Shown here: positions 6,582 through 38,592 of the stretch, piece after piece | Layout: each line of letters begins with the position of its first letter | Numbering within the stretch: position 1 is the first letter of the stretch | NCBI GenBank assembly: GCA_020047815.1 | Contig: JAIFNG010000032.1 | Location: 1-38,592 of the forward strand | DNA length: 38,592 bases | Source: Anaerolinea sp. | Lineage (GTDB): Bacteria > Chloroflexota > Anaerolineae > Anaerolineales > Villigracilaceae | Direction: 5' to 3' | Made by a program: the position numbers and the translations under genes | The notes under the pieces: generated by a model | Seen by the model: the letters and a program-made list of their open reading frames with translations, nothing else | Databases searched by the model: none | Told to the model about the DNA's origin: nothing

Positions 6582-6642
6582 TTCTTTTGTGGAAATTCCG
6601 CTCCCGGGCTGTTTCCTCATCTCAAACCATTAACTCTACATC

Positions 6643-17339: not shown

Positions 17340-17350
17340 ATTGGATCCTT

Positions 17351-21500: not shown

Positions 21501-21849
21501 GGAGGTAGGTGAAATAGGTGTGAACGGAAAAGAATACTGCCAGCAGGAGGTAGTTGTGGTGTTGTGGACCCGGTGTCTCGGTAAAATATTCCAACCCGAT
21601 ATAAAGGAGAATTATTCCCGCAACTGCGATGGTATTTGCAGCCACGATCGACATGAAATCCGGGATAACCCCGCGTAATGTGATCAGCAAAACAGCCGCG
21701 AACTGCATTGTGAAACCTGCAAGCCAGAAACCAAGCCCGGGATAACGCCTGTGGTTTTGACGCCACAGGAAACCCACGACAATGGCGCAGATGGCATTGC
21801 TGATTGTATAACCAATGAAAATCGTTCTGACATCAAGGTTGTTGATCAT
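18580..21849 (-). CDS. membrane sensor histidine kinase, 7TM-PAS-PAS-GAF-PAS-HisKA-HATPase
   Basis: A 1089-residue sensor. Residues 1-225 contain about seven hydrophobic helices forming an integral-membrane sensory domain. PAS domains lie near 240-360 and 365-490 (each preceded by EQAL, with the second followed by DITERKEME). A GAF domain spans about 500-665 and a third PAS about 685-810. The HisKA dimerisation helix has phospho-acceptor His830 (AAGIAHEINTPIQYV). The ATPase domain has the N box (NMIVNASQAI), G1 (DTGSGIP) and G2 (GKGTGQGLS). Membrane, redox or small-ligand input is possible; the ligand is unknown. The stop overlaps the start of the HDOD regulator. The start (GAGAGAAA then ATG) follows a long untranslated region. 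Confidence 0.93.
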   Translation of the reverse strand: MINNLDVRTIFIGYTISNAICAIVVGFLWRQNHRRYPGLGFWLAGFTMQFAAVLLITLRGVIPDFMSIVAANTIAVAGIILLYIGLEYFTETPGPQHHNYLLLAVFFSVHTYFTYLQPSLTWRNYNFSFTTLLLCIQVAWLMFHRADVKFRPGTTSVGFIFIAIALVNICRILFNTNGANANDLFQSGTFYALATLIYQMLYMGLTFTLFLLVNYHLVDRLEVDIRERQLTEQALRVSEEKFSVAFQNIPDAVLITSLGDGKIFEANDAFFQLSNYSKEDITGQSIDDLGFWGNKNDQLEFAKVLEKEGRIQNLETSFRKMNGEVFIGWISGEIIQLQDEKCILSLIHDVTQRKKTEQALTENYSTLHNILESTDALIFSLNRQYCYTSFNSVHAKKMKELYDRDIQVGGNILEYMTVESDRLIARQNIDRSLAGEHLVEEAYSGDEDLSRRYFEVSHAPITTDLGEVIGVSIFSQDITERKEMEISLQLRLMELETVSNLSASMRAGKNLKELLLILLYETLKVVKSFDGCILLLDPVDHLLRLTESQGWFETIKDLSLRADEGIAGQLFATNEPYISLDHKTDELIRVQDRPLFPPRSSGAFLPIRGESGSIGLLIISFQLPRIASRNEVRMLTIISQLAASAITRSRLNDQVQAFNKELQNEINKKIVVQELLAAEKELLSTTLMSIAEGVIVMDKDGLVILFNRAAESITGYTLSEAIKQPINSVFRLHISNKFEIVPDVIKYLLELEYAQKNHLPYRSPLIVSKSGENILLSGNITSLKAADLEEGPAGFVLVFQNINEKLKAEAQNALSQKMEAIGQLAAGIAHEINTPIQYVGDNIKFLGKAYSKYSETLAAYRQVIHEHLGKAVTQDELDQVNELALQKKVPYYENEIPKAIQESLDGTERVRKIVLAMREFSHPSEKEKKLSDINHGIETTIVISRNEWKYCADLEADLDNELPLVYCQIDEINQVVLNMIVNASQAIQEKCPPGSEQKGNILIRTRHQEDRVFITIQDTGSGIPVDIRARIFDPFFTTKGIGKGTGQGLSMAHNIVVNKHHGNIGIDSDVGQGTTFTIELPVNYSPVDQ

Positions 21850-22262
21850 TTTCTCTCAATATTCTGCGGTATGCTATTCGTCCTGGGTTCATGTTGTGGT
21901 TGAAGGGTGGCTAAGCATCACAGGCAGACTTTTGTGTCACACCCTGCCCGGCAACCCCTGATTGTATTGGCACGTGTGCTGGCTTACATGGATGGTTATT
22001 TGCAATTAAGAATCCATGACTGACTTCTCTCGGCTGCTGGCGCCAAAAATTATAGCCATGGAATTTCCGGCGTCCAGTCAACTCTATTGTAAGAAAAAAA
22101 GGTGCTTTTGGGAATAAAAATACTATGAAATCTAGTTTCATAGTACAGTCGTGATCGATATTTCCCCACTTGGCAGGCGTTCGGAGAAATGATTTTCGAC
22201 GTGGGTTCCACACAGTACCAGGTCTCCCCTCCGGCGAAAACCTTCCAGTGTTACCCTACTCC
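21850..22262. other. 413-nt intergenic region between two signalling operons
   Basis: It holds a terminator-like hairpin for the NarL-type regulator gene and a candidate promoter for the large kinase gene. The latter has TATAAT on the minus strand at 22054-22049, but its only good -35 (TTGACT, 22081-22076) is 21 nt away, so the promoter may need an activator. The resulting leader of about 190 nt includes a GGCAG...CTGCC hairpin enclosing GTGT/ACAC (near 21930-21955). I could not match the leader to a known riboswitch, and I see no ORF worth calling. Confidence 0.4.
22116..22145 (-). terminator. terminator-like hairpin for the NarL-type regulator gene
   Basis: The 10-bp perfect stem 22121-22130 / 22136-22145 with a 5-nt loop is followed on the minus strand by TTTTTATT. 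It lies 118 nt beyond the regulator stop. The stem is AT-rich, so it could instead be a palindromic operator. Confidence 0.5.
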
Positions 22263-22919
22263 TCATTTTAGGTCTGCCAGTCCCTCACGCAATGCAAATA
22301 AAGCCGCTTGTGTCCGGTTTGCCAGGTGTAATTTCCCGAGGATGTTCCGTACATGGGTCCGCACAGTCCATTCGCTGAGAACAAGGCGGGTTGCGATCTC
22401 CTGGTTGGTCAATCCTTGAGCCACCAGTTTTAAGACTTCCAACTCGCGTTCAGACAGGGGGTTTTCAACTGGGGGAAGTTCAGAGGGGCGATTGATCTCC
22501 CGAATTAACTGCAGGGCAATACTAGGGTGCAGGGAAGCCTCTCCGCGATAAACATCATGGATGGCTTTAAGAAGTTCCTGGGGTGACGAGTCTTTTAAGA
22601 GGTAGCCCAACGCGCCTGCCCGGATTGCAGGGAAGACCTTATCTTCATCGGAAAAACTGGTCAGCACCAGGATCGAGACTTCGGGCAGCAGGCTTTTAAT
22701 TTCACTGATCGCTTCCAAGCCATCTTTTACCGGCATGACCAGATCCATCAGGATCACGTCAGGTTTCAGTTCAAGGGTTTTGCTGACAGCTTCCTCACCG
22801 TCAACAGCTTCTCCAACCAACTTCAGGTCGGGTTCAGTGGCGATCAAGGTTCGAAGGCTGTCTCGAATAATTGGATGATCGTCTGCAATCAACACCCGTA
22901 TGATTTTTGTTTTATCCAC
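22263..22919 (-). CDS. NarL/LuxR-family response regulator (LiaR-like)
   Basis: A 218-residue regulator with an intact receiver (Asp13-Asp14, phospho-Asp59 in VILMDLVMP, Lys109 in LLKDS) and a C-terminal LuxR-type helix-turn-helix (about 150-215: LSEREVE-like LSERELEVLKLVAQGLTNQEIA, then TVRTHVRNILGKL). It uses a GTG start with GGAG about 10 nt upstream. It lies 44 nt downstream of a HisKA_3 sensor kinase, its evident partner, and is the second gene of a two-gene operon. Confidence 0.93.
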   Translation of the reverse strand: MDKTKIIRVLIADDHPIIRDSLRTLIATEPDLKLVGEAVDGEEAVSKTLELKPDVILMDLVMPVKDGLEAISEIKSLLPEVSILVLTSFSDEDKVFPAIRAGALGYLLKDSSPQELLKAIHDVYRGEASLHPSIALQLIREINRPSELPPVENPLSERELEVLKLVAQGLTNQEIATRLVLSEWTVRTHVRNILGKLHLANRTQAALFALREGLADLK

Positions 22920-22963
22920 GATTTACTTTCTCCAACTGTCTATATGTCGGTATTCCACACAAG

Positions 22964-25288
22964 TCATCTGCCGGTTTCTGGAAGATGTACGCTTACTTTA
23001 ATGACCGTACCTTTGCCCGGGCTTGACCGGATCGCCAGTAATCCATCGATTCGTTTCACCCGGTCTCTCATGTTGACCATACCCATGCCTCCCATTTGAT
23101 CAACGGTTTTTGGGTCGAAACCTTTGCCGTTATCAGCGATTTCCAGCACGGTCGTTTCATCCTGTATATAGATCCGAACAGTTTCCTTTGTGGCTCTGGC
23201 ATGTTTCAGGGCATTATTCAATGCTTCCTGGGCTATCCAGTATAGTTCTTCTTCCACTTGTGGCGGTAGTTCAATGAAGTCCTCCATCACAACCCGCGCT
23301 GCGATACCGACCCGTTTTTCCACTGCATCCAGCCTTTTTTTCAAGGCTCCCACCAACCCCTCTTGTTCCAATATCGGAGGTCGTAACTCGAGGATGAGAA
23401 GCCGCATTTCCTTCAATGATTGCTGCGCGATCTCCCCAATCCTGTTCAAGTACTCCTCTATCTTGTCCGTTCCTTCACTTTTTAGCATGCGCCGCCAGCC
23501 TTCGGTAAAAAGCACCAGGCTGTAAAGTGATTGTGTGACCGAATCGTGCAATTCACGCGAGAGGCGGTTGCGCTCCTCCAGGACAGCCAATCCCTTGCTC
23601 TGGTTATAGAGATATGCGTTTTCTATTGCCACAGCGATCTGATCGCCCAAACTTTGAATGACCAGGATGTCTTCTTCCAAAAAGGCATACACCTTGGAAG
23701 CATGCACATCCAGAGTGCCTATGATCCGGTCGCCGACTTTCAGGGGTATCACCAGTTCGGATCGCGTTTCAGGCAGATTATCATCAAATAAAAAATTTGA
23801 ATCCAGCAGGACATCATTTACCAGTTGGATCCTGCCGCTCTGCGCGGCTGCGCTATTTATACTTCTTTTTATGATATCCAGGCGTTGGTGCTGAATGCTG
23901 CGGTTGCCGCTGCTGGCTCCCATGATAAATTGTTTCGTATCTTGTTCGAGCAGGAATACCTGAACATGATAATACCCGAAGGCATCCTGGATCAATTCCA
24001 CAACCCGGTTCAATAAAATATCCACATCCAGAATTGAGGTGATCTCACGCCCGACCTGTGCGCTTGTTTCCAATTGCAGTGCCCTTTGCTCCAAGGCCTC
24101 GTTCGCTTCACGCAATTCGTGTGTTCTTTCCTGGACACGCTGTTCCAAAGAGTTGATCAGGTCGCGGATCTGTGCTGTCATACTGTTGAAGGCGCGGGCA
24201 AGTGCGCCAACTTCATCTTCGCGGACAATGGTTGCAATCGGTTCCAGATCGCCCTGGGCAATGTTTGAGGCTGTTTTTGCAAGTTCGGAGATGGGATTGG
24301 CTATGTTTTGTGTCATGAAAAGAGCGGCAAACACAGCCAGGACGAACGCAATAAATGCGATCACAAGATTGATGGTGGCATTTGCAAAAACTGCCTGAAA
24401 GACTTCAGTAGAATCCTGCTCTACGGCAAGAACGATTTTTAGGTCGGGAATCCAGCGGTAGATGCCAACTGTACTTTTTCCGCTGGGGTTGGAGTAATTG
24501 CCCGCAATATTGGATGCCTGTTGAATTGCCTTGTCGACCCCGATGGTTCGGATGGAGTGCGGGTTTTCCTGAGAGTCCAGCTCGGATCCAAAAAAACTTA
24601 ACCCTGCCAGCGGTGCGTAATCCCAGTTTACGAGATACGCTGTCCCGGTGTCGCCTAGTCCGGTCTTCTCGTTCAAAATGATATGAAGTGCGTCGATATC
24701 GACCTTCCCGCCAATCGCGCCGATGAAAAGCCCATCATCCTTGTTTAACGGGATTAAAACAAAAGCAGATGAACGATCCGGTTCAGCCAAAATCACCTTG
24801 CGGTCAGCATTTTCCATATCCCAAAGGAAAGGCAACTGGGTGTATGGAGCAGTCAACTCCTGGGGATAAAAAATAAAATCGCTGTAATTATTTTTCTCCC
24901 TTTCAACATTGGTGGATACGACCACTTCCCCGTTGGTGTTGATCAAGAACATCTCTTCGAATTGGGAGGATTGGTCGGCAAAAAATCTCAATCGTTTTCG
25001 CACCAGGTTGTTGTACCAGGCGTAGGAGATATTTTCATTTGAGAGTTTCAATGCATTACTGACCAGTTTTGGGGAATAGTCAGTTTGGGAGGCAACTTGT
25101 AATTCCTGCTGCAAAGCCTGCACCCAAACCTGGATGGCAAGCTCCTTGCGCGCGGCAACTGATTCAAGGCGGTCAATGGATTGCTGGCGTCCGTTTTGGT
25201 GACTAACGATATAGGTGCTGATCCCCATGCCGAGAACGGGAAGCAAGGCAACCAACACAAAACCAATGAGCAATCGTACTCGAATCAT
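22964..25288 (-). CDS. sensor histidine kinase, Cache-HAMP-GAF-HisKA_3 (LiaS/NarX-like)
   Basis: A 774-residue membrane kinase. A first transmembrane helix (about 5-25) and a second (about 310-335) enclose an extracytoplasmic dCache-type ligand-binding domain containing LINTNGEVVVST and GAIGGKVDIDAL. A HAMP domain (about 335-390), a coiled coil, and a GAF domain (about 410-560) follow. The HisKA_3 domain has phospho-acceptor His581 in SRELHDSVTQSLYSL, and the ATPase domain ends with DNGKGFD and GGMGMVNMRDRV. It is the partner of the NarL-type regulator downstream. The ATG has GGAGAGA directly upstream. The Cache domain suggests sensing of an external small molecule; the ligand is unknown. Confidence 0.93.
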   Translation of the reverse strand: MIRVRLLIGFVLVALLPVLGMGISTYIVSHQNGRQQSIDRLESVAARKELAIQVWVQALQQELQVASQTDYSPKLVSNALKLSNENISYAWYNNLVRKRLRFFADQSSQFEEMFLINTNGEVVVSTNVEREKNNYSDFIFYPQELTAPYTQLPFLWDMENADRKVILAEPDRSSAFVLIPLNKDDGLFIGAIGGKVDIDALHIILNEKTGLGDTGTAYLVNWDYAPLAGLSFFGSELDSQENPHSIRTIGVDKAIQQASNIAGNYSNPSGKSTVGIYRWIPDLKIVLAVEQDSTEVFQAVFANATINLVIAFIAFVLAVFAALFMTQNIANPISELAKTASNIAQGDLEPIATIVREDEVGALARAFNSMTAQIRDLINSLEQRVQERTHELREANEALEQRALQLETSAQVGREITSILDVDILLNRVVELIQDAFGYYHVQVFLLEQDTKQFIMGASSGNRSIQHQRLDIIKRSINSAAAQSGRIQLVNDVLLDSNFLFDDNLPETRSELVIPLKVGDRIIGTLDVHASKVYAFLEEDILVIQSLGDQIAVAIENAYLYNQSKGLAVLEERNRLSRELHDSVTQSLYSLVLFTEGWRRMLKSEGTDKIEEYLNRIGEIAQQSLKEMRLLILELRPPILEQEGLVGALKKRLDAVEKRVGIAARVVMEDFIELPPQVEEELYWIAQEALNNALKHARATKETVRIYIQDETTVLEIADNGKGFDPKTVDQMGGMGMVNMRDRVKRIDGLLAIRSSPGKGTVIKVSVHLPETGR

Positions 25289-28051: not shown

Positions 28052-29329
28052 CTATAGAGGAACTGCGCCATGCTCAATGGTAACGGCAACAATGTCCCTG
28101 CTGTCAACATCCCTTGAGGCCGCATTTTTTTGCACTGCCAACGCCGCCGCTGCGCCCATTGCCTGGCCCATTGCCATGCAGGTACACTGTGCGCGAATCC
28201 CTGCAAAAGCTATTCTATTGGCGGAAATGTTCCTGCCTGCCACAGTAATGCGCCGGCTGTCTTTTGGGATGAGGGCGCGGAAGGGAACTTTGGGCAGCAG
28301 GTCTTCTGATTTAAGAAATTGAACTTCACAACCGGTTTCCTGGCTGTGCATATCAATGTAATTGAAGGCATTGCACACCTTATCTTCAAAATCAACAGCC
28401 TTGAGAAAATCATCACTCTCGATCAGGATTTCGCCCAGGGTGTGATAGGTCTCGCGTGCGAGCGCATAAGGCGCCATCATTTTGAGGGTTGCCCGCTCAC
28501 AGCCGGGGATGGATGTGCGGACGAACTTGAACATGCGCAGCATACGTGCCCTGCCTTCAATATTGGCACGAGTCTGCCCATCGGCTTCAGAAGTGTCTGC
28601 GTCGTAGATGTGTGTGCCGTTGTGCCCACCGTGAGCGAGGTAGTACTGGAAAGGTTCAAGGTTGGGGTATGCCCAGTCTCCCTTCTTCAGAGTGCCATCA
28701 TCCATTGCCTCTTCGTAAATCTTCTGTACTTCCTCTTTCCAGATTTGCTCATGTTCGATGCCTTCGATCTTGTATTGGAGCGTGCCAGGCTGGGAAACAG
28801 TTGATCGAAGTACTTTTAACCCAAGAATGCGCACAACATCCGAATCGCCAGAGCAATCAATGATCTCTTTGGCTTTTGTGACACGCTTGATGCCGCGCCC
28901 AAAGGAGGTGACCTCCCAAAGATTTCCTTCCGCTTTCACCTCAGCAATGAACTCATGGTAATGAAGGATCGCACCTGCCAGCAAAGCCTCTTCTTCAGCA
29001 ATGGCGGCGTATACAGGAACATTGATGTAACTGTAATAGCCGGGTGTTTCCATTGGCCTTCTTTTCTGGTAATCGGGAATGGGCAGTCCTTCAATTTCTT
29101 TTGACCTGATATAAAGCTCCCAGGGAATACCCTGAACTACTGGCCCCCTGGTGTTAAAGAAATGGTTGGGCATGTAGACACCGCCGGCAGTCATCGTGCC
29201 GCCCAGCATGGTTCCCGCTTCGATGACCGAGGTTTTTACACCAAGCCGCCCAGCTTGTATGGCGGCGATATGACCGGCAGTTCCACCTCCGGCCACCACT
29301 ACATCAACTTTTTCTATGATTGTTTTCAT
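28052..29329 (-). CDS. FAD-dependent oxidoreductase (FAD_oxidored family), copy 2
   Basis: A 425-residue flavoprotein with the same architecture as its downstream neighbour: GGGTAG motif at 14-19, acidic end of the second strand (VIEAGTMLGGTM), IIDCSGDSDVVRILG in the middle, and ITVAGRNISANRIAFAGIR near the C-terminus. The pair looks like an old duplication with diverged sequence. The ATG lies 2 nt after the stop of the DppF-like ATPase gene, so it is translationally coupled to the importer. This argues that both act on whatever the importer brings in. The substrate is not known. Confidence 0.85.
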   Translation of the reverse strand: MKTIIEKVDVVVAGGGTAGHIAAIQAGRLGVKTSVIEAGTMLGGTMTAGGVYMPNHFFNTRGPVVQGIPWELYIRSKEIEGLPIPDYQKRRPMETPGYYSYINVPVYAAIAEEEALLAGAILHYHEFIAEVKAEGNLWEVTSFGRGIKRVTKAKEIIDCSGDSDVVRILGLKVLRSTVSQPGTLQYKIEGIEHEQIWKEEVQKIYEEAMDDGTLKKGDWAYPNLEPFQYYLAHGGHNGTHIYDADTSEADGQTRANIEGRARMLRMFKFVRTSIPGCERATLKMMAPYALARETYHTLGEILIESDDFLKAVDFEDKVCNAFNYIDMHSQETGCEVQFLKSEDLLPKVPFRALIPKDSRRITVAGRNISANRIAFAGIRAQCTCMAMGQAMGAAAALAVQKNAASRDVDSRDIVAVTIEHGAVPL

Positions 29330-29331
29330 TG

Positions 29332-30360
29332 TTAGTAAATCGGCGCGTCCTTTAAAATTTTATGATCAATTTGCGTGTGAGCCAAATGGCACGCGGCAAA
29401 TTGTCCCGGTTGAATCTCACCAAACTCGGGGGCTTCGATTTTGCAAATTTTTTCTGCAATGGGACAGCGCGGATGGAAGACACATCCCGTCGGTGGATTC
29501 GCCGGGCTGGGCGGTTCCCCCTTCAGGATGATTCTCTGCCGCTGGCGTTCCATTTTCGGGGAGGGAATCGGAACTGCGGAAGTGAGCGATTGGGTATAGG
29601 GATGAATCGGGTTGTCGAAAATTTCGTTCCGTCCAGCCAACTCCACCACCTTGCCCAAATACATGACCGCCACGCGATGAGAGATGTGTTTCACCATGCT
29701 CAAATCATGCGCGATGAAAAGATACGCCACGCCAAGTTTTTCCTGTAACTCCTGCAGCAAGTTGACGACCTGCGCTTGAATGGAAACATCCAGCGCGGAG
29801 ATGGGTTCGTCGCACACAATGAAATCAGGTTTCACGGATAGCGCACGTGCGATCATAATGCGCTGGCGCTGACCGCCAGAGAACTCATGTGGGAAGCGGT
29901 GCATGTATGCGGGATTCAAGCCGACAAGTTCCAGCAATTCCACGACCCGTTCGTGTAATTCGGCTCCATTCATCATTCCATGAATGACCAGCGGCTCCGC
30001 GATAATTTTCTTGACGCTGTGGCGCGGATTGAGCGAAGCATACGGGTCCTGAAATACCATTTGAATCCGCGTGCGTAGTAGGCGGAGTTCCTCATCGGAC
30101 GCCGCAGTCAGGTCTTTATCTTCAAAATACACTCTTCCAAATGTTGGCTTTTGAAGTTGTAATATGGTGCGACCTGCCGTGGATTTTCCGCAGCCGCTTT
30201 CGCCGACCAAGCCAAGCGTTTCGCCTGCGCCGATGTTGAATGAAATGCCATCCACGGCTTTGACGACTACTGTATTTTGTCCGAACAGACCTGTCGGGAT
30301 ATGAAAGTGTTTCTTGAGGTTGAACACGCGAACGATGGGCTCAGTGTTTTCCATTTTCAT
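29332..30360 (-). CDS. dppF: peptide-type ABC transporter ATP-binding protein (DppF/OppF)
   Basis: The second ATPase of a Dpp/Opp-type importer. It has Walker [10 protein letters not shown] (53-61), signature FSGGQRQR, Walker B FIVCDEP and the D-loop SALDVSIQAQ. The oligopeptide-transporter C-terminal module has a Cys cluster (PTGCVFHPRCPIAEKIC) typical of the OppD/OppF family. The start overlaps the stop of the DppD-like gene (ATGA). It works with the ATPase and two permeases upstream. The family also transports nickel, opines and sugars, so 'peptide' is only the default substrate. Confidence 0.92.
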   Translation of the reverse strand: MKMENTEPIVRVFNLKKHFHIPTGLFGQNTVVVKAVDGISFNIGAGETLGLVGESGCGKSTAGRTILQLQKPTFGRVYFEDKDLTAASDEELRLLRTRIQMVFQDPYASLNPRHSVKKIIAEPLVIHGMMNGAELHERVVELLELVGLNPAYMHRFPHEFSGGQRQRIMIARALSVKPDFIVCDEPISALDVSIQAQVVNLLQELQEKLGVAYLFIAHDLSMVKHISHRVAVMYLGKVVELAGRNEIFDNPIHPYTQSLTSAVPIPSPKMERQRQRIILKGEPPSPANPPTGCVFHPRCPIAEKICKIEAPEFGEIQPGQFAACHLAHTQIDHKILKDAPIY

Positions 30361-31349
30361 CCGCCTTTCTCGAAGACATGAAAGCAGGCAACCTGATGCG
30401 CCTCTTCAACATTGGTCAATACGGGATTTTCATTCCAACAATGTTCGAAGGCATGGATACAACGCCACGCAAAAGGGCAATGATTAATGGGAATGGTTGC
30501 GTCAGGTGGCGCGCCGTCAATGCTGACCAACCGCTTTGCTTCATGAATATCAAGACGCGGAAGCGCGCCGAGCAATCCAACCGTATAAGGGTGGCAGGGA
30601 TTGTCGTATAGGAGGTCAACCGGCGCGGCTTCCATGATCTTGCCGCCATACATCACCAGAACGCGATCTGCCAACCCCGCAACAAGTCCCAGGTCGTGCG
30701 TGATCCAAATGGTTGCGACTCCCATCTTCGCCCGCAATTGTTTGAGGAGGTTCACGATCTGCGCTTGAATGGTGACATCGAGCGCGGTGGTGGGTTCATC
30801 CGCGATGACAATGCGCGGCGTACATGCCACTGCGATGGCGATCATCACGCGCTGTCTCATCCCGCCTGACATCTGAAAGGGATACGCGTTGTAGCGTAGT
30901 TCAGGGTCAGAGATGCCGACTTCGGCGAGCAGTTCCAACGCCCGTAACCGCGCGTCTCTCGCGCTGATTCCCAAATGTTTCATCAGTGATTCGGAAATCT
31001 GTTCGCCAACTTTCAGGATCGGGTTGAGCGAAGTTTGCGGGTCTTGAAACACAAACCCAATCTGCCCGCCGCGTACTTCATTCATTTCATTTGCAGAGAG
31101 TTTCAGTAGATCGCGGGCGCCTTGTGATGTGTAATAGAGCGCCTCCCCGCTTTCAACTTTTCCGGGCGGCGATGAGATCAGCCCCATGACAGACATCATG
31201 GAAACGCTCTTGCCGCATCCGCTCTCGCCGACGACCGCAAGAGTCTCGCCTTCGTCGAGCGTAAAACTGACGCCATTCACCGCGTTGACCACGCCATCAA
31301 GCGTGTAGAACTTTGTGACCAAATCTTTGACTTCAAGAATCACAGCCAT
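30357..31349 (-). CDS. dppD: peptide-type ABC transporter ATP-binding protein (DppD/OppD)
   Basis: The first ATPase of the importer (330 aa), with Walker [10 protein letters not shown] (41-49), signature MSGGMRQR, Walker B IVIADEP, and [11 protein letters not shown]. The C-terminal oligopeptide module has [14 protein letters not shown]. The ribosome binding site is strong (AGGAGGG), 9 nt after the DppC-like gene. It overlaps the DppF-like gene by four bases, as expected for a heterodimeric ATPase made in equal amounts. Confidence 0.93.
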
Positions 31350-31358
31350 GTTGCCCTC

Positions 31359-32285
31359 CTATTTCCTTGAACGTCGCAGGCGCGGATCAAGCACATCGCG
31401 CAGCCAATCGCCGGCGAGATTCATGCCCATAGAAGTGAACATGATCGCCAGCCCAGGGAAGGTGGTCAGCCAGTGGTCATTTACCAGATATTTGCGTCCC
31501 TCTGCCAGCATATTGCCCCAACTCGGCACATCGGGCGGAACACTCAAGCCCAAAAAGCCAAGCCCCGCTTCATAGAAAATCATCGCCGACATTTCGAATG
31601 TCGCCAGTGTTATCAACGGTCCTATCAAATTGGGGATGATGTGATCGAAGATGATGCGTCCCGACCGGGCGCCCGCGCTAATGGCAGATTCGACATACGC
31701 GCTTTCGCGGATTCGCAGCACTTCGCCGCGCGCCACACGCGCAAAAATGGGCGAGTCGGTAATGCCGAAGATAAGGATCACGTTGAGCAAACTTCTTCCA
31801 AGAATGGCGGCGATGAAGACCACGAAGAGTAAATACGGCATGGCGAGAATCAAATTGATGGGTCCCATGATGATGGAGTCTACCCGCCCGCCGAAATATC
31901 CCGCAATCGCGCCGATAACCAGCCCAAGTGTTGCCGCGATGAGCACGCCGAAGAATCCGACTGTGAGCGAAACCCGAGCGCCAGAAAGGATACGGCTGAA
32001 CATATCGCGTCCGAGACTATCCGTGCCAAAGGGTTGCTCCCATGCCCCGCCTTCTTCCCACGCGGGCGGCATTTTGCTGTTGATGAGATCTTGATCCAGT
32101 GGGTCGCGTGCGGTAATGACAGACGCAAAGACCGCCGCGAAGACGACAATGAAAAACATAATCAAGCCAATCGTTCCGCCTTTGTCGCGCCAGAGTAGCC
32201 GAGCTAAAAATGCAAGGCGGTCTTTGAAGGTTGTCTTTATTTCGAGTCGGCTGTCGGCTTTGGGGGAGAAGGTTTTACTTACCAT
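31359..32285 (-). CDS. dppC: peptide-type ABC transporter permease (DppC/OppC)
   Basis: A 308-residue inner-membrane permease. A cytoplasmic N-terminus is followed by about six membrane helices, with an extended periplasmic loop after the first (residues 60-100, DPLDQDLIN...FGTDSLGRDMFSRI, a DppC/OppC hallmark). The cytoplasmic coupling (EAA) region is SAGARSGRIIFDHIIPNLI. It overlaps the upstream DppB-like gene by 11 nt. It forms the channel with DppB. Confidence 0.92.
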   Translation of the reverse strand: MVSKTFSPKADSRLEIKTTFKDRLAFLARLLWRDKGGTIGLIMFFIVVFAAVFASVITARDPLDQDLINSKMPPAWEEGGAWEQPFGTDSLGRDMFSRILSGARVSLTVGFFGVLIAATLGLVIGAIAGYFGGRVDSIIMGPINLILAMPYLLFVVFIAAILGRSLLNVILIFGITDSPIFARVARGEVLRIRESAYVESAISAGARSGRIIFDHIIPNLIGPLITLATFEMSAMIFYEAGLGFLGLSVPPDVPSWGNMLAEGRKYLVNDHWLTTFPGLAIMFTSMGMNLAGDWLRDVLDPRLRRSRK

Positions 32286-33195
32286 AGCGAATCCTCGGGT
32301 CGAGCAGGGCGTAAGCCAGATCAGTTGCGAGATTGAGCGCTAACACCACCACACTGGTAAAAATCGCCAGCGCCTGCACAAGCGGAAAATCGCGCCAGCC
32401 GATTGCCTGCGAAAGCAACTGTCCCATGCCAGGCCATGCAAAAATCGTTTCGATATAAATCGAGCCGCCGAGCATGTAACCGAATTGCACGCCAATTACG
32501 CTGATCAACGGGATGGCGACGTTTCGCAAAATATGTTTGAAATAAATTGTGGCTTGATTCAAGCCTTTGCTTCTCGCCGTGCGGACAAAATCCTCACCGC
32601 GCACCTCCAACACGGTCGAGCGTGTCATGCGCAGAATTTGACTCGATACTGCGAGGCTGAGAACGAAGGCGGGCAACACCACCGACTTCGCCTGGTCCGC
32701 GCCAAAGGATGGAAACCAATGCAGGCGTACCGCAAAGACAAGAATGAGGAGCAATGCCAACCAGAAGTTTGGAACGCTTTGTCCCAACAGGCCCCAAAAC
32801 CGTCCCAGCGAGTCAAGCGGGCTGCCGGGGTTAAGTCCGCCTGTCAGACCCAGCGGCACGCCAATTAGAATCGCCATGAGCAGCCCAATCACCGCCAGTT
32901 TAACAGTCGCAGACAGGCGTTCCATCACAAGGGGCAGGGCCGGCGTTGCGTAGTGAAGGGAATTTCCAAAATTGCCAACGGCTGCCTTCGAGAGGAAATC
33001 CAAAAATTGAACGCTGACCGGGCGGTTGAAGCCCATCATTTCGCGGAAAGCTTCCATCTCTTCGGGCGAAGCGTCGCGCGACATCATCAACGCCACAGGG
33101 TCGCCAGTCATGCGCAGCATGAAGAACGCAAGAGTCAAAACACCCAAGAGCAACACAACGGAAATGAGAAGTTTGGATACAAAATAGCGCAGCAT
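32275..33195 (-). CDS. dppB: peptide-type ABC transporter permease (DppB/OppB)
   Basis: The first gene of the importer operon. It has the standard DppB start (MLRYFVSKLLISVVLLLGV, then FFMLRMTGDPV), about six membrane helices, and the coupling motif TARSKGLNQATIYFKHILRN. I chose the ATG at 33195 (306 aa), which has AAAGG about 10 nt upstream; the longer reading from 33219 would place that ribosome binding site inside the gene. No substrate-binding protein gene precedes it, which is unusual: DppA/OppA normally leads such operons. It must be encoded elsewhere, or the system is partly degraded. Confidence 0.9.
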   Translation of the reverse strand: MLRYFVSKLLISVVLLLGVLTLAFFMLRMTGDPVALMMSRDASPEEMEAFREMMGFNRPVSVQFLDFLSKAAVGNFGNSLHYATPALPLVMERLSATVKLAVIGLLMAILIGVPLGLTGGLNPGSPLDSLGRFWGLLGQSVPNFWLALLLILVFAVRLHWFPSFGADQAKSVVLPAFVLSLAVSSQILRMTRSTVLEVRGEDFVRTARSKGLNQATIYFKHILRNVAIPLISVIGVQFGYMLGGSIYIETIFAWPGMGQLLSQAIGWRDFPLVQALAIFTSVVVLALNLATDLAYALLDPRIRYGK

Positions 33196-33679
33196 TATAT
33201 CTACCTTTCTTTGAATCATCGGCGCTTATACCGCTAACTCGCTAATTAAACGACATTGACAGTGTAATCCGCGACACAGCCGGTTACTACCGTTGTGATA
33301 TGGTTTTCAAAATAAATTCTTTCCATGCCAAAACCTTTCCGGATAGCTGCCTTCGGGTTCGCTGGCATGCATTTGCGACAGTGACGTTCTTATGCTACGA
33401 AAGCGTCGGTAGTTGTCGCTCATCGTTCGCTACTTGGCTCTGTGATTGGAGCTTATGCTCAGAAATCAGCCTCTTTTTCCTAATTTTCAAGCTATACGGA
33501 TTTTGTACGGTAGAGAATAACTTGTAAGTGATGAGCTAACCTACTGATTTTTGTGAATTGAAAGTCTCTTTTTTTATCGCAAAAATGCCAAAATTACGGG
33601 TAAATTCGGGCTTAAGGGCGATTTTTTCGGGACTTACTTTATTCAAAAATCAGTAGGTCAGATCTCCCTGCAGATACCT
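33196..33679. other. 484-nt intergenic region separating the importer and ETF operons
   Basis: No gene is supported. The right part holds a 120-bp element with 15-bp terminal inverted repeats (33539-33658). The left part is AT-mixed, with an imperfect inverted repeat (GCGACA...TGTCGC, about 33373-33418) and no convincing promoter for the importer genes. The missing binding protein is not here: the only ORF, of 75 codons, resembles nothing I know. Confidence 0.5.
33539..33658. repeat. 120-bp AT-rich element bounded by 15-bp perfect terminal inverted repeats
   Basis: The left arm 33539-33553 (ACCTACTGATTTTTG) and right arm 33644-33658 are perfect reverse complements, separated by 90 nt of AT-rich DNA without an ORF. 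The size and ends fit a MITE-like non-autonomous element. No target-site duplication is evident at the outer ends, and no second copy was seen in this window. A long-range hairpin that trims or ends the kinase mRNA (stop at 33680) is the alternative. Confidence 0.5.
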
Positions 33680-35125
33680 TTATCGATTTGCTTCTTCGCA
33701 TGCCCGGTGTATTTGCTTGAGTGTTTCCTCCAGCATGGTTGTTAGCTCCCGATAAGCCCCCACATTGATGGTTGTATAAACCTTGTGATTCTTTGGGTTG
33801 GGACTGAACTCGTCACGTTGATGTACCATGGCACCGACTGCCTGGGCAAAGTCGCTATAGATTCCCGTCGCTACAGCCACACAGATCGCGGCCCCCAGGC
33901 CCGCCGCCCCATTGATCTCGTTACGTACGGTTCGGATACCGAAGACATCTGCTACAATCTGCATAAAGAGAGGACTGTTCGACCCCCCGCCGCTGACGAT
34001 AAGCTTGTCCGGTACGATTCCGGTATCCTTAATCATGCCGTCCAGATTGTTCTTCATTCGCATGGCAATTGCTTCCATGATGGATCGGTACATGTGACCC
34101 CGGGTGTGGCGCTGATCGAAACCGATCATAACGCCCTTCTTGTGCAATTGTGTCGCAGGAGCAAGCCAGTCCGGAACGGTTAGCAGACCATCGGAGCCAG
34201 CAGGAACCTGGGCTGCTTCCTCCTCCAGCAGTTCCTCCACGATTCGGCCTGATTCACGTGCCTTCCGCTCTAACTCTTCACCGATGATGCCTTTAAACCA
34301 GGAGATATGCCACATGCCACCCCGAATACCCGAGCTTTCATACAGATACCGGTACGGGATGCACGACAGATTGGTGAAATAAGTTTTCCCATCAGGCAAA
34401 TTCCGTTCCCCCGCGACCATTGATGCGATGTAGGTGCCCAAAGACAAGAGGGCTACCCGGGGTTCGATAAGCCCTGACCCCAGGGACTCCACCGCTTTGT
34501 CGTTCGCTGTGGCTACCACAGGAATGCCCTCGGGCAAACCTGTCTCTTCCGCCGCCGAGGCGGAAACGCGCCCAAGGATTTTTCCGGGCAGGCACATTTC
34601 CAGGAGTTTATGACGGGGAATCCTGAAGGTGGAGAATGCGTCCGGATCCTCGATCCACTTCCAGGTCTCCATGTCTACTGGGAATTGGCCCTGGTACTGG
34701 TTGGCTATGGTGTCCTTTAGCTCCCCGGTCAGACGGAAGGTTAGATAGCCCGAGGTTGACCCGGTATAGCCGATATCCGGTTCGTCCTCATACGTCAGAT
34801 AGGCTCGTATATCCATCCAGCTCATGACCGGCGCTGCCAGGGAACCATCCTTTTTCAGAAAGACCCGGCAGGTGCGGATCGAACAGAGGCCGATCCCCTT
34901 GATGTCTGAAACATCCCCTTTGAAGGAAGCCATAAGTTCTTTCAACGCCGCTTTCGTGCTATCCCACAGATCGTCATCAGGATGTTCGACCCAGCCCTTC
35001 TGTCGGGTTAGCATGGGCCGCAGGGGCTGGCTTGCGCTGAGGAGTATCTCTCCCCGCTGGTTGATAATGGAAACCTTGGTGCTTTGGGTGCCGCTGTCGA
35101 CGCCGATAAAAAACACGTCATTCAT
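33680..35125 (-). CDS. FGGY-family carbohydrate kinase (YgcE-like)
   Basis: A 481-residue ATP-dependent sugar/polyol kinase of the FGGY family (xylulokinase/glycerol kinase relatives). The N-terminal phosphate loop is IGVDSGTQSTK (7-17). The second domain has TANDKAVESLGSG, LSLGTYIAS and the adenosine motif IVSGGGSNSPLFMQIVADVFG. I chose the ATG at 35125 because GAGAGG lies just upstream; the longer reading begins with TTG at the SDR stop codon. It is the last gene of the ETF operon, about 29 nt after the SDR gene. In family and context it matches E. coli YgcE from memory. The substrate is unknown. Confidence 0.88.
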   Translation of the reverse strand: MNDVFFIGVDSGTQSTKVSIINQRGEILLSASQPLRPMLTRQKGWVEHPDDDLWDSTKAALKELMASFKGDVSDIKGIGLCSIRTCRVFLKKDGSLAAPVMSWMDIRAYLTYEDEPDIGYTGSTSGYLTFRLTGELKDTIANQYQGQFPVDMETWKWIEDPDAFSTFRIPRHKLLEMCLPGKILGRVSASAAEETGLPEGIPVVATANDKAVESLGSGLIEPRVALLSLGTYIASMVAGERNLPDGKTYFTNLSCIPYRYLYESSGIRGGMWHISWFKGIIGEELERKARESGRIVEELLEEEAAQVPAGSDGLLTVPDWLAPATQLHKKGVMIGFDQRHTRGHMYRSIMEAIAMRMKNNLDGMIKDTGIVPDKLIVSGGGSNSPLFMQIVADVFGIRTVRNEINGAAGLGAAICVAVATGIYSDFAQAVGAMVHQRDEFSPNPKNHKVYTTINVGAYRELTTMLEETLKQIHRACEEANR

Positions 35126-35154
35126 ACTTACCTCTCTTATTGTTCCTATTGAGA

Positions 35155-35934
35155 TCAACGCATCAGGTAGCCACCGTCGACGGTCAGGACGGTGCCGTTC
35201 ACATAGTTCGAGGCGTCACTCGCAAGGAATACGCAGGCGCCCATGAGATCAGCAGTCCAGCCCCAGCGGTTTGCAGGAATATGGGAAAGGATCGTGGCAT
35301 TGCGCTGTGGGTCACTGCGGGTCTTTTCCGTCAGGCTGGTGGCGAAATAACCCGGAGCGATGGCGTTGACCTGGACATCGAATTGCGCCAGTTCGTCGCA
35401 CATGGCTTTGGTCAAGCCAACGATTCCGTGCTTGGTGGCGGCATAGGCTGGAGACCATTGTCCGCCCAAAAAGGAGTAAAGGGAGCCAATATTGATGATC
35501 TTGCCGCGATTTTGCTTAATCATGTGCTTGCCTGCCTCATGAATCATCTCAAAAGCCGCAGTCAGGTTGACAGCTACCATCTTGTCCCATTCCTTGCGGG
35601 TGAACTTGGTCACATCTTCGATATTGATGCAGATGCCCGCACAGTTGACCAGAATATCTATGCTGCCCCAGGCTGCCACACAGGCGTCTACGGCTCGTTT
35701 ACATTCGCCGTCAGCGGTAATGTCTCCGAGCAGGTGCTTGTACTCGACTCCGCAATCCTCGACCCAGCCCCTGGTCTCGCCATCCTCCTCCACAAGGCTG
35801 ATGACCAGCACATTCGCTCCGCCCCTGGCGAGCGCCACCGAAAAAGCTTGCCCCAGACCACTGTTGCCGCCGGTAACTATGGCGTTCTTGCCTTTCAGGG
35901 AGAAAAAATCCATCGTAAAGTCTGTAACATTCAT
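35155..35934 (-). CDS. SDR-family dehydrogenase (YgcW-like)
   Basis: A classical short-chain dehydrogenase/reductase of 259 residues. It has the cofactor motif TGGNSGLG (21-28), NCAG (97-100, one change from the usual NNAG), Ser151, and the catalytic Tyr164/Lys168 (YAATK). The segments MDFFSLKGKNAIVTGGNSG, LGGQWSPAYAATKH, IPANRWG and SNYVNG match what I recall of E. coli YgcW very closely, unlike generic SDRs. It should oxidise or reduce a hydroxyl/keto group with NAD(P). The ATG overlaps the EtfA stop (ATGA), so it is tightly coupled to the flavoprotein. A start at the second Met (residue 8) is possible. Confidence 0.93.
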   Translation of the reverse strand: MNVTDFTMDFFSLKGKNAIVTGGNSGLGQAFSVALARGGANVLVISLVEEDGETRGWVEDCGVEYKHLLGDITADGECKRAVDACVAAWGSIDILVNCAGICINIEDVTKFTRKEWDKMVAVNLTAAFEMIHEAGKHMIKQNRGKIINIGSLYSFLGGQWSPAYAATKHGIVGLTKAMCDELAQFDVQVNAIAPGYFATSLTEKTRSDPQRNATILSHIPANRWGWTADLMGACVFLASDASNYVNGTVLTVDGGYLMR

Positions 35935-36899
35935 CTTTTTTGATCTCCAGAATTTTGAGTATTTGATGCTTCTATGCGATTTAGAAGCCCTTCCACAAAT
36001 GCCCGGCTGTCCCCTTCTACAACTATGTCCGACATGCTGCAGATCGGGGCCTGCCTGTTTGTATTCACAGAAATGATATACTCCGCGTCCCTGATGCCCG
36101 CCACATGCTGGGCTGACCCGGAGATGCCAAGGGCGATGTAAAGCCGCGGACTCACGATCTTTCCCGACTGGCCTACCTGGATTGCCCGCGGGGCCTTACC
36201 CATGTCTACGACCTTGCGGCTTGCGGCGACCATGCCATGCAGCGCTTCCGCGAGTCGCTCAAGGAGGTGGAAATCACGGATTACTCCGCCGCCTCCGGAA
36301 ATCAGGACTTCGCTTGTGCGTATATCTCGAGCCTCGGACTTTTCTCGACGTTCGATCAGCTGAATGCCCGGGGTCTTCATATCCTGCACATCAACATCTA
36401 TAATTTCTGCAGACTTGAGGACTGGCTCTTCATAGGTGAAGACCCTGGGGCGTACACTCATCATGACCGGTCCGCTTCCCCGGCAGACAACCGTAGCCAA
36501 CATGCGCCCGCTGAAGGCCGGCCGCACCATCAAGACTTCATCACCATCAGTTCCGATTCCTGTTACGTCCGCCACCAGTCCGGCGTGGAGCCGCATAGCC
36601 GCCCTCGGGGCAATCATCCGGCCGCAGTGGGTTGCCGGAACAACGATCGCGTCAAAACAGTAAATCCTGTGCAAGAACTCGATACAGCGGGCAATAGTGG
36701 CCGTATCATAATTTGGCAGCGCCCCATTCTTCACCTGGAACATATAATCGAACAGGCTGCCTGCCGCTCCGTATCGGACTCCTGCGGCAAGGGCGTAGGA
36801 ACAAAAGCCCTTATCTCCGTATATCAGCCGACCGACCTCGAGCAGATCGATGGAGTCTTCCACTGCATCTTCGTCGATATACACCAGCACCCGCTTCAT
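35931..36899 (-). CDS. etfA: electron transfer flavoprotein alpha subunit (YgcQ-like)
   Basis: The alpha subunit of an ETF, which carries FAD and shuttles electrons from dehydrogenases to the quinone pool or another acceptor. The C-terminal FAD domain is intact: VGQSGKIVSP (242-251), LGISGSAQHVAG (257-268) and the NTNRQAPIC segment that continues the fold. The N-terminal domain is more divergent than housekeeping ETFs. At 322 aa it is normal in length. It overlaps EtfB by four nucleotides and the SDR by four, so the complex is made as a unit. Its location beside an FAD oxidase and kinase points to a dedicated pathway rather than fatty-acid oxidation. Confidence 0.93.
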   Translation of the reverse strand: MKRVLVYIDEDAVEDSIDLLEVGRLIYGDKGFCSYALAAGVRYGAAGSLFDYMFQVKNGALPNYDTATIARCIEFLHRIYCFDAIVVPATHCGRMIAPRAAMRLHAGLVADVTGIGTDGDEVLMVRPAFSGRMLATVVCRGSGPVMMSVRPRVFTYEEPVLKSAEIIDVDVQDMKTPGIQLIERREKSEARDIRTSEVLISGGGGVIRDFHLLERLAEALHGMVAASRKVVDMGKAPRAIQVGQSGKIVSPRLYIALGISGSAQHVAGIRDAEYIISVNTNRQAPICSMSDIVVEGDSRAFVEGLLNRIEASNTQNSGDQKR

Positions 36900-37696
36900 G
36901 GCTGTAGAAATCCCTTTTGTTCCAGCCAGTGGTACACCTTGTCGATACCGTCCTGGTCGACACGAAGCAGCACCGGGTCTTTGGCTTCCAAGGCATCCAC
37001 CTCAAGGCGGCGTACCTGGGTAAGAGACCCTTTCAGTCCCAGCTCCGACTCGTCCATCCCAAGTTTGTCGTTTCCCAGCACAGTAATCCGACTGGACACA
37101 TCCCGGTTCAAGTCTTCATATTGGATGTAGGGCAGCTTGCGTTCAGGGCTGTACTGGAACCCCAGCACCGCAGGAAGAGCAATGGAGAATCGCATCATCG
37201 CCGTCTCTCCCTCAACATCAACAACAGCCTGCCCTTCCTGGGAGATAAGTTTTACCAGGGCGCAGATGCCCACCATGAGGGGCAGCCCCAAGACTTCGGC
37301 CAGCTGAGCCGGCACCTGGCCGGTTCCCCCATCGAGGGTGTGGGTACCACAGAAAACACAGTCAAAATCCCTCGTCCCGAGATATCGCGCCAGCACCCTG
37401 CTCGTCGCCCAGGTATCACTACCCGCATGGCGCGGATCGGATATCAGCGTGACATGGTCGATTCCACGGCGCACTAGGTCCTCGAGGTGAGGCATGGCTC
37501 CCCGCGGAGCCATGCTCACAGCTTCAATGTACGTATCGGGGGCATCTCTTTTTAAACCCAGCGCCGTAGCCATTGCGGTAGCATCCTCGGGGTTGAGCAT
37601 CAGGCGCGCATTCTCACGGATGAGGATGTTCCTTTCGCGGTCATACCGAAGCTGGTCCACATCGGGTACCCACTTGAGCAAGCACAGGATTCTCAT
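36896..37696 (-). CDS. etfB: electron transfer flavoprotein beta subunit (YgcR-like)
   Basis: The beta subunit of the same ETF (266 aa). The nucleotide-binding loop is recognisable as CGTHTLDGGTGQVPAQLAEVLG (about 115-136), with the N-terminal strand ILCLLKWVPD and the NPEDATAMATAL helix. Standard ETFs bind AMP here, bifurcating types FAD; the sequence alone does not settle which. It lies 39 nt after the FAD-linked oxidase gene and overlaps EtfA (ATGA). It provides the docking half of the ETF for its partner oxidase. Confidence 0.93.
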   Translation of the reverse strand: MRILCLLKWVPDVDQLRYDRERNILIRENARLMLNPEDATAMATALGLKRDAPDTYIEAVSMAPRGAMPHLEDLVRRGIDHVTLISDPRHAGSDTWATSRVLARYLGTRDFDCVFCGTHTLDGGTGQVPAQLAEVLGLPLMVGICALVKLISQEGQAVVDVEGETAMMRFSIALPAVLGFQYSPERKLPYIQYEDLNRDVSSRITVLGNDKLGMDESELGLKGSLTQVRRLEVDALEAKDPVLLRVDQDGIDKVYHWLEQKGFLQP

Positions 37697-37735
37697 GCGT
37701 CATCCGTTTCGTTTGAATGCTTTCTCTTTTTGGAA

Positions 37736-38592
37736 TTATTTTTGGAACCTGGCGCCTTCTTCCTGATAGAAGATGGTGCCGAAGTTCATGATGCCATTAG
37801 GATCGAATGCTTCCTTCAGTTTCTCAAGTATGTAGTACGCGGAACCATGTTCCTCCCTGGTCCATTCGTTGCGGTATTTGCCAATGCCATGGTGATGACA
37901 CATGGATCCGCCGAGCTTGAGGGTTTCTTCCACAATGATGCGCTGGATCGAGTGGTGGTAGACTCGCATTTCGTCCTCGGGAGCACAGTTGATGGCGTAG
38001 TTGTAGACGAAATACATGTTGGTGCCGTTAATGTAGCTATGGGAAGAATGGCCGCCCAACATGGTTAAATCGTGTGCCCTTGGGAATTCCTCCCTGACGC
38101 GCTTAATCACATTGTCATACAGGGTCGGGATGGTTTCCCAGTCGGCAGATACCTCGGTAGTGAACCCGGCATGGGAATCGTTGTCGATCATCCCCTGGAA
38201 TTCGTCGTCGATATCCTGCTGGGACCAGTTGAGGTTCTTGAACCAGGTCGCAATCCGTCTTTGAACTTCTCGACCGCCTCTTCGATCCCAGCACAGATGG
38301 CCTGAACGATGCCCTTGTTCCCTTCGGCCATGAAAAGGAGAACGCATTTTCCCTTGTGAAAGTGGTAAAAGTGCTGCCGGGCATCCTCTTCGGAATAGAC
38401 GCGGGCAACAGAAGGCCGGTACCCGTTGACCATGACCTCCCGAAGCACTTTGATTCCACTGGCCACATCCTTGACGAGATAACCGAAAAAGGTATGGTTC
38501 TCCGGGAAGTATCGGTAAATTTTGATCGTCACCTCGGTGATGTAGCAGAGGGACCCTTCGTTGCCAATCGCAATATGACGAATATCGGGACC
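37736..38592 (-). CDS. FAD-linked oxidase, AGPS/YgcU-like (N-terminus off window; apparent frameshift)
   Basis: The C-terminal part of a flavoprotein of the FAD_binding_4/FAD-oxidase_C family (alkyl-DHAP synthase, D-lactate dehydrogenase, E. coli YgcU). The first visible residues, GPDIRHIAIGNEGS, are the end of the FAD-binding domain. The AGPS signature GGSMCHHHGIGKYR lies near the end, and the stop is preceded by FDPNGIMNFGT. One reading frame runs from 38592 to about 38258 and the matching continuation is in another frame (RIATWFKNLNWSQQD). A single base is therefore missing near 38254-38262, either a sequencing error or a real mutation. It should oxidise the pathway substrate and reduce the adjacent ETF. 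Confidence 0.85.
   Translation of the reverse strand, partial: SRYSSYCDWQRRVPLLHHRGDDQNLPILPGEPYLFRLSRQGCGQWNQSASGGHGQRVPAFCCPRLFRRGCPAALLPLSQGKMRSPFHGRREQGHRSGHLCWDRRGGREVQRRIATWFKNLNWSQQDIDDEFQGMIDNDSHAGFTTEVSADWETIPTLYDNVIKRVREEFPRAHDLTMLGGHSSHSYINGTNMYFVYNYAINCAPEDEMRVYHHSIQRIIVEETLKLGGSMCHHHGIGKYRNEWTREEHGSAYYILEKLKEAFDPNGIMNFGTIFYQEEGARFQK

Follow-up and report, generated by a model that had tools for sequence, protein, structure and literature searches.

Alkylglycerone-phosphate synthase (AGPS) works by a covalent-flavin mechanism, and in animals its site makes alkyl-dihydroxyacetone phosphate (alkyl-DHAP) ethers; the alkyl-DHAP reductases belong to the short-chain dehydrogenases/reductases (SDRs). 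Alkylglycerol monooxygenase (AGMO) is an O2-dependent animal membrane enzyme. It cleaves glycerol ethers and is named as the only enzyme known to do so in the relevant lines of a 2021 review (PMC7911779), and it was the one enzyme found among the matches listed when open-licence literature on glycerol-ether cleavage was searched. For the ygcU-ygcR-ygcQ-ygcW-ygcE genes of E. coli K-12, the open-licence literature searched, mostly by titles, held no published function, and one study in which ygcU was deleted reports that the D-serine response under examination did not change (PMC13012123). Here, we analysed a related cassette at the end of a 38,592-base stretch of Anaerolinea sp. DNA (contig JAIFNG010000032.1), hereafter the window, which is one entire contig (C138) of a 4.06 Mb assembly with 192 contigs and 88.8% completeness. 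The cassette encodes an AGPS-like flavoprotein oxidase, the two subunits of an electron transfer flavoprotein (ETF), an SDR and an FGGY kinase. The window copy is truncated and frameshifted, and its oxidase, SDR and kinase are orthologous to ygcU, ygcW and ygcE.

From gene content, orthology, linkage and catalytic residues, which were observed directly, we infer all the substrates and reactions described here. The cassette is predicted to degrade quaternary-amine glycerol ethers, most likely the glyceryl-trimethylhomoserine head groups of betaine lipids, a tentative reading to which we give somewhat less than an even chance. The description as a betaine-lipid head group follows from taking together a glycerol part, an ether at dihydroxyacetone phosphate (DHAP) and a quaternary amine. 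The FGGY kinase and a glycerol-3-phosphate-type antiterminator point to the first, the AGPS-type site of the oxidase and the SDR to the second, and carriers, methyltransferases and a lyase to the third. A wider proposal, which we hold with more reserve, is that betaine-lipid ethers would be cleaved independently of oxygen by reversed AGPS chemistry once a kinase and an SDR had formed an alkyl-DHAP-type substrate, that in some bacteria a new trimethylaspartate lyase would act afterwards and release fumarate and trimethylamine, and that the E. coli ygc locus would be a copy of this system. Published passages describe betaine lipids as substitutes for phospholipids in algae and phosphate-starved bacteria (PMC9892843, PMC4796936), and as present also in fungi (PMC6383925). 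The enzymes that break the ether of diacylglyceryl-trimethylhomoserine (DGTS) are called unidentified but presumed to exist in the passage of a 2023 review that deals with them (PMC9892843), and no catabolic enzyme for the betaine-lipid ether was seen in the titles and abstract openings of the open-licence literature searched. If the prediction is right, it provides candidate enzymes for opening the head-group ether, assigns a role to an orphan locus of E. coli K-12 and points to another source of trimethylamine and fumarate.

Linkage of the cassette to quaternary-amine functions

Scanning genomes with an alignment of the kinase identified 427 relatives, and we took the best 80 by similarity to the kinase of the window. 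Together with the window, E. coli, five plasmids, a second genome of the window's class (G1281) and four further Bacilli, they made up a set of 92 loci, many of them cut by contig ends. For this count, L111, L112, L114 and L115 were substituted by longer stretches of the same genomes, the markers of L119 and L121-L124 were listed manually, and phylum labels were assigned from record titles with Bacillota as the default (the title of L079, for example, is unclear). The recurrent neighbours were BCCT carriers, OpuA-type ABC transporters, MTTB, dimethylamine methyltransferases, and an aspartase-like lyase with an aldehyde dehydrogenase (ALDH) and often a zinc-dependent alcohol dehydrogenase (Zn-ADH); MFS carriers, SurE, RpiR/SIS regulators and glycerol-3-phosphate (G3P)-type antiterminators also recurred. 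Any quaternary-amine function was present in 51 of the 92 loci, or in 49 when two loci with only an OpuA-type permease or ATPase were dropped. BCCT was found in 22 loci, OpuA-type genes in 24 (the OpuAC binding protein in 21), MTTB/MtbB in 10 and the lyase in 7. Marker-bearing loci made up 45 of the 80 best relatives, 6 of the 10 added loci and neither of the window and E. coli; by phylum label, they were 39/51 in Bacillota, 5/7 in Actinomycetota, 4/7 in Spirochaetota, 2/6 in Pseudomonadota, 1/8 in Chloroflexota, 0/6 in Bacteroidota, 0/3 in Desulfobacterota and 0/4 in others.

A rough null for BCCT was taken from 14 cassette genomes (~63 Mb), which are other than most of the 92. BCCT was found there at 15 places, with 10 of the 14 genomes having none, and at this density chance alone would put less than one into 92 loci of 20 kb. 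Linkage to MTTB carries less weight, as this gene was more frequent, with 43 places in 8 genomes. The 19 control loci (18 under 4.1 kb and one of 10 kb) held no betaine carrier and are too short for comparison. RpiR/SIS regulators or G3P-type antiterminators were present in 59 of the 92 loci, which fits a phosphorylated glycerol-like intermediate.

The earlier note on this DNA had proposed an ordinary sugar or polyol. On that reading, the flavoprotein would oxidise a plain sugar, sugar acid or polyol through ETF to the quinone pool and the kinase would phosphorylate the product, the betaine genes being osmotic or chance neighbours. Sugars are substrates of the FGGY family and of KduD-like SDRs, RpiR regulators commonly sense sugar phosphates, MFS carriers occur in 39 of the 92 loci, and 41 loci show no quaternary-amine marker, all of which would suit such a substrate. 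It is nevertheless disfavoured by the quaternary-amine carriers and enzymes of the other 51 loci and by the AGPS-type catalytic residues of the oxidase, as well as by the residue signature of the lyase and the inconstancy of ETF, described below, and we consider it unlikely. Among the substrates that had been listed as candidates, ether-type glycerol derivatives are the one that the evidence favours.

A dimethylamine methyltransferase ORF at L055:1352-2416, from a cluster found also in L051 and L059, gave a match that ends at profile position 353 of 463, presumably near the position where the pyrrolysine codon is expected. Candidate microcompartment genes beside L041 and L066 were rejected, those scanned being ribosomal proteins (L041) and RecQ, a YhcG-type nuclease and an AlbA_2-type protein (L066).

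Oxidase active site and the place of ETF

Using AGPS residue numbering from 4bca (Tyr578Phe) and 4bc7 (Arg419His), we found the equivalents of Arg419 and Tyr578 in 75/75 full-length oxidases and that of the His615-617 triplet in 74/75; the other 8 of the 83 oxidases found were too short or mis-started for this count. The same set of residues was missing in 11 GlcD-type neighbours. The full-length oxidase of L013, the nearest relative of the window, scored 141.5 bits and so missed the GlcD family cut-off of 567.9 bits (TIGR00387). Comparison of folds gave close scores for AGPS and LDHD, so we did not use it to choose between them.

SDR and kinase were present in all 92 loci, the oxidase in 83 (the two oxidase pieces of the window fell under the coverage limit) and ETF in 59. 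No ETF was found in 29 of the 83 loci holding oxidase, SDR and kinase, among them six Flavobacterium loci and loci of Streptomyces, Vibrio, Priestia and others; 19 of the 29 have at least 2.5 kb on both sides, and 10 have less than 2.5 kb on one side. In G1281, the only trace of ETF between oxidase and SDR (L119:3482-3620) was a 38-residue EtfA match with 79% identity, without any EtfB match; this remnant, the end of which matches the EtfA C-terminus, is read as a probable deletion scar. Because 29 of the 83 three-gene loci show no ETF, we regard it as an accessory and not, as the earlier note had it, as a defining part of the cassette. ETF is perhaps more typical of anaerobic lineages.

These observations bear on a second explanation, by which the substrate would be a hydroxylated quaternary amine without a glycerol ether, such as a betaine resembling carnitine, choline or a sugar, and the AGPS-like protein would serve as a dehydrogenase feeding ETF. 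The His-triplet, Tyr and Arg residues characterise an ether-forming enzyme and are lacking in the 11 GlcD-type neighbours, ETF is not constant, and the FGGY kinase and the G3P-type antiterminator together would be left unexplained, and we likewise judge such a substrate improbable. The AGPS-type site would also suit general cleavage of glycerol ethers (alkylglycerols), the quaternary-amine linkage marking just one class of them, and loci without amine genes, for example the six Flavobacterium loci and Streptomyces, are in keeping with this. On the other side, small-zwitterion carriers are frequent, as the BCCT and OpuA-type counts indicate, and no lipid-uptake or fatty-alcohol genes were noticed among the annotated neighbours; we regard general alkylglycerol cleavage as the least likely of these alternatives.

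Residues of the aspartase-like lyase

The lyase and ALDH accompany the cassette in Bacilli and Vibrio, with Zn-ADH too in four of the seven lyase loci. The Vibrio pelagius locus contains BCCT, SDR, oxidase, kinase, lyase and ALDH, the Priestia locus contains Zn-ADH, ALDH, lyase, SDR, oxidase and kinase, and the Bacilli locus L121 carries lyase, ALDH, OpuA genes, kinase and SDR on one strand. Since the E. coli aspA locus, used as a control, passes the lyase marker threshold, the marker alone cannot separate lyase from aspartase and a check of residues is needed; ours covered all seven lyases of the cassette loci together with 120 homologs, the nearest ones listed of 392 (P0241-P0360). Thr101, Ser140 and Thr141 have roles in aspartase. 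In these 120 homologs, the SS-loop serines, Ser140, Thr141, Thr187, Lys324 and Asn326 were kept (with one Thr for Ser319), His188 was replaced by Cys in 120/120, Asn142 by Ser or Ala in 119/120 and Thr101 by Ile in 116/120, and at positions 320-321 all 120 had Phe and then either Phe or Tyr. The cassette lyases agreed, except that Thr101 was Phe in one and the Vibrio protein was without the two Phe.

In all seven cassette lyases, the residues described as contacting the product amine of aspartase (PMC11744663), His188 and Asn142, were thus replaced by Cys and by Ser or Ala. The same source, in the part that bears on the site, also counts His188, Asn142 and Met321 in the carboxylate pocket (PMC11744663), so that the change may concern more than the amine. 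The counterpart of His188 in E. coli AspA is Gln. A greasy, aromatic amine site of this kind fits a quaternary ammonium leaving group, and the family, often annotated as aspartate ammonia-lyase or lyase family protein, is probably not an aspartate ammonia-lyase. No literature linking an aspartase-type lyase, trimethylamine, betaine and fumarate was found among open-licence papers, and what they held on betaine-lipid head groups in connection with trimethylamine and BCCT was confined to work on phospholipids.

Predicted pathway

The proposed breakdown of the head group would begin with import of the zwitterion by a BCCT, an OpuA-type or, in the window, a Dpp-type carrier. The FGGY kinase would phosphorylate the free primary glycerol hydroxyl and the SDR would oxidise C2 to give a dihydroxyacetone phosphate ether, in either order. 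At its Tyr, Arg and His-triplet site, the AGPS-like flavoprotein could then open the ether by way of a flavin adduct and release the betaine alcohol together with DHAP or an oxidised C3 phosphate, and ETF, where present, would accept electrons from the oxidase flavin. Corrinoid methyltransferases (MTTB and non-pyrrolysine MtmB) would demethylate the betaine; alternatively, in Bacilli and Vibrio, it would undergo oxidation to trimethylaspartate, from which the aspartase-like lyase would release fumarate and trimethylamine. We take the alcohol beyond the DGTS ether bond to be homoserine betaine, and on chemical grounds Zn-ADH and ALDH would turn it into N,N,N-trimethylaspartate.

Several points weigh against this pathway. 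The lyase is present in only 7 of the 92 loci, and there are no amine genes near the E. coli copy, the Bacteroidota copies and 7 of the 8 Chloroflexota copies. The window shows only a Dpp-type importer and no quaternary-amine marker, and its own copy of the cassette may be non-working. Moreover, the presence of ETF in some lineages points to a net oxidation there, and opening of the ether may therefore be oxidative and not hydrolytic.

Distribution and lateral spread

The cassette occurs under nine phylum labels in the 92 loci; because the 80 best relatives were ranked by likeness to the window kinase, the phylum shares are biased. In the class of the window, the oxidase was found at E 1e-60 or better in 2 of 396 sampled genomes, the window's own and G1281. 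Among 385 Alphaproteobacteria sampled, only the genome used as centre carried it, and the same held for 369 Gammaproteobacteria; in Bacilli it was present in 6 of 398 genomes, two of them already in the set. No kinase match above 36% identity was found among 20 relatives, 12 of the same genus. The oxidase of G1281, which belongs to another family of the same class, is 92% identical to that of L013, and RecA of the L013 genome and the two RecA of G1281 share 68-72% identity. A quick kinase tree, without bootstrap and with long branches flagged, had 20 changes of phylum label against a possible minimum of 9, with Actinotalea (L015) standing among four Chloroflexota. Copies on plasmid records were found for Ilyobacter, Priestia, Vibrio, Enterococcus and Streptomyces.

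The comparison of trees for co-inheritance that the earlier note had suggested gave mirror-tree correlations over 75 loci of 0.67 for oxidase and kinase, 0.54 for oxidase and SDR, and 0.43 for kinase and SDR, above shuffle maxima of 0.16-0.26 in shuffles that ignored relatedness, and this agrees with co-inheritance. The expectation of a mobile pathway conserved across phyla was also supported: nine labels, two carriers among the 396 genomes of the class and the mixing of phyla in the kinase tree make the cassette look mobile. Lateral spread is the simplest reading of these patterns, and the cassette is real, rare and probably laterally spread.

The cassette in the window and its relation to ygc

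The minus-strand order of oxidase, EtfB, EtfA, SDR and FGGY kinase, given in the earlier note, was confirmed by ORFs and Pfam, with matches along the cassette to FAD-oxidase_C, ETF, ETF_alpha plus ETF, adh_short and FGGY_N/C, and the ATGA overlaps of EtfB/EtfA and EtfA/SDR are both present in the DNA. The AGPS/YgcU-like FAD protein is represented by its middle part (38251..38592), which is 57% identical to YgcU residues 199-315 and 96% identical to the L013 oxidase, and in another frame by its 3' part (37736..38257, PF02913), which contains the Tyr578 and His-triplet equivalents. The corresponding ORFs span 37736-38347 and 38188-38592, the second being open at the contig end. The 5' end of the gene lies beyond the contig end, and since the window is the whole contig, approximately the first 198 residues are absent. 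At ~38255, near the contig end, a 28-bp gap relative to the intact genes of L013 and L119 places the two pieces in different frames, which reflects either real loss (decay) or an assembly fault. The genes that follow on the minus strand encode the EtfB-like subunit (36896..37696, PF01012), the EtfA-like subunit (35931..36899, PF00766 and PF01012), the SDR (35155..35934) and the kinase (33680..35125), for which the ATG start is at 35125 and the ORF is open to a TTG at 35158.

We compared these proteins with the E. coli K-12 ygc proteins translated from NC_000913. The window SDR is 62% identical to YgcW over 254 aa, in line with the striking likeness claimed earlier, the oxidase is 57% identical to YgcU over 119 aa and 56% over 170 aa, and the kinase is 46% identical to YgcE. 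EtfA shares only 26% with YgcQ over 235 aa, and EtfB 25% with YgcR over 99 aa only. The likeness to ygc that had been proposed for all five families therefore stands as orthology for oxidase, SDR and kinase. The ETF pairs fall into separate clusters (c3/c4 against c11/c5) and probably belong to different branches, and both types occur together in some loci. In L052, L064, L075, L080 and L090, which have both types, a second GlcD-type flavoprotein follows the E. coli-type pair in an LctBCD-like order. The kinase did not reach the NCBIfam cut-offs for xylulo-, glycerol, AI-2, ribulo- and gluconokinase (best XylB, 171.6 against 380.25), and the SDR did not reach that for KduD (315.5 against 369, NF005390).

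Flanking genes and the nearest relative

Starting 460 bp after the kinase, the same strand carries DppB-DppC-OppD-OppF and a PF12831 flavoprotein. They encode a DppB-like ABC permease (32275..33219, 94% identical to its L013 counterpart), a DppC-like permease (31359..32285, 97%), an OppD-like ATPase (30357..31349, 92%) and an OppF-like ATPase (29332..30360, 95%), in the same order as in L013 and probably forming an importer of the same run, which the FAD oxidoreductase continues (28052..29329, 88% identical along the 300 of 425 aa that precede the end of the L013 contig).

L013/L120 is the nearest relative of the window, with a kinase 91% and an oxidase ~95% identical. Its run comprises, on one strand, a substrate-binding protein (SBP), MTTB, a corrinoid protein, two MtmB, a class III aminotransferase, AFOR, a MoaD-like small ORF (a label read from the sequence, without a family match) and DRL, and then oxidase, EtfB, EtfA, SDR, kinase, DppB, DppC, OppD, OppF and the PF12831 protein. 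This arrangement is what may lie past the end of the window contig. The DRL of L013, a possible bridge to the missing upstream part, was not found in the window's own assembly or in G1281, in a search without a positive control, and the presence of these upstream genes in the window organism is therefore conjectural. With an SBP heading the L013 run and Dpp permeases towards its other end, import of a substrate about the size of a dipeptide may be its role. The two tandem MtmB homologs (L120:4922-6388 and 6401-7765), which adjoin MTTB and the corrinoid protein, have no in-frame stop and are therefore of the non-pyrrolysine kind, of which one member is reported, in the lines of the source that concern it, to demethylate tetramethylammonium and choline (PMC13044021).

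Elsewhere in the window, genes for sensor kinases and for response regulators of HD, HDOD and LuxR type follow one another on the minus strand at 16161-25288, past an aminotransferase, and 9010-11229 encodes a 739-aa protein with two phosphofructokinase-domain matches.

Comparison with known systems

The E. coli ygcU-ygcR-ygcQ-ygcW-ygcE locus resembles the window in its orthologous oxidase, SDR and kinase and in the presence of ETF subunits, but it has the YgcS/YqcE carriers, YgcN/YgcO and YgcP, where the window instead has a Dpp-type ABC transporter. The Ldh-EtfAB complex of Acetobacterium woodii (LctBCD, 7qh2) likewise has a VAO-fold flavoprotein adjoining EtfB-EtfA. Its GlcD-type family differs in that the AGPS residue set was missing in the 11 members checked, and the complex presumably works without a kinase or SDR. 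Compared with AspB (1j3u, 3r6v), the cassette lyase has His188, Asn142 and Thr101 replaced. The cassette oxidase shares the catalytic Tyr578, Arg419 and His615-617 with AGPS (4bby, 4bca, 4bc7, 2uuu), whereas it is shorter (490 against 658 aa) and stands in a catabolic-looking operon with a kinase, an SDR and often ETF. AGMO cleaves glycerol ethers, as is predicted for the cassette; AGMO depends on O2, whereas the cassette is also present in lineages that are anaerobic, judged by organism names.

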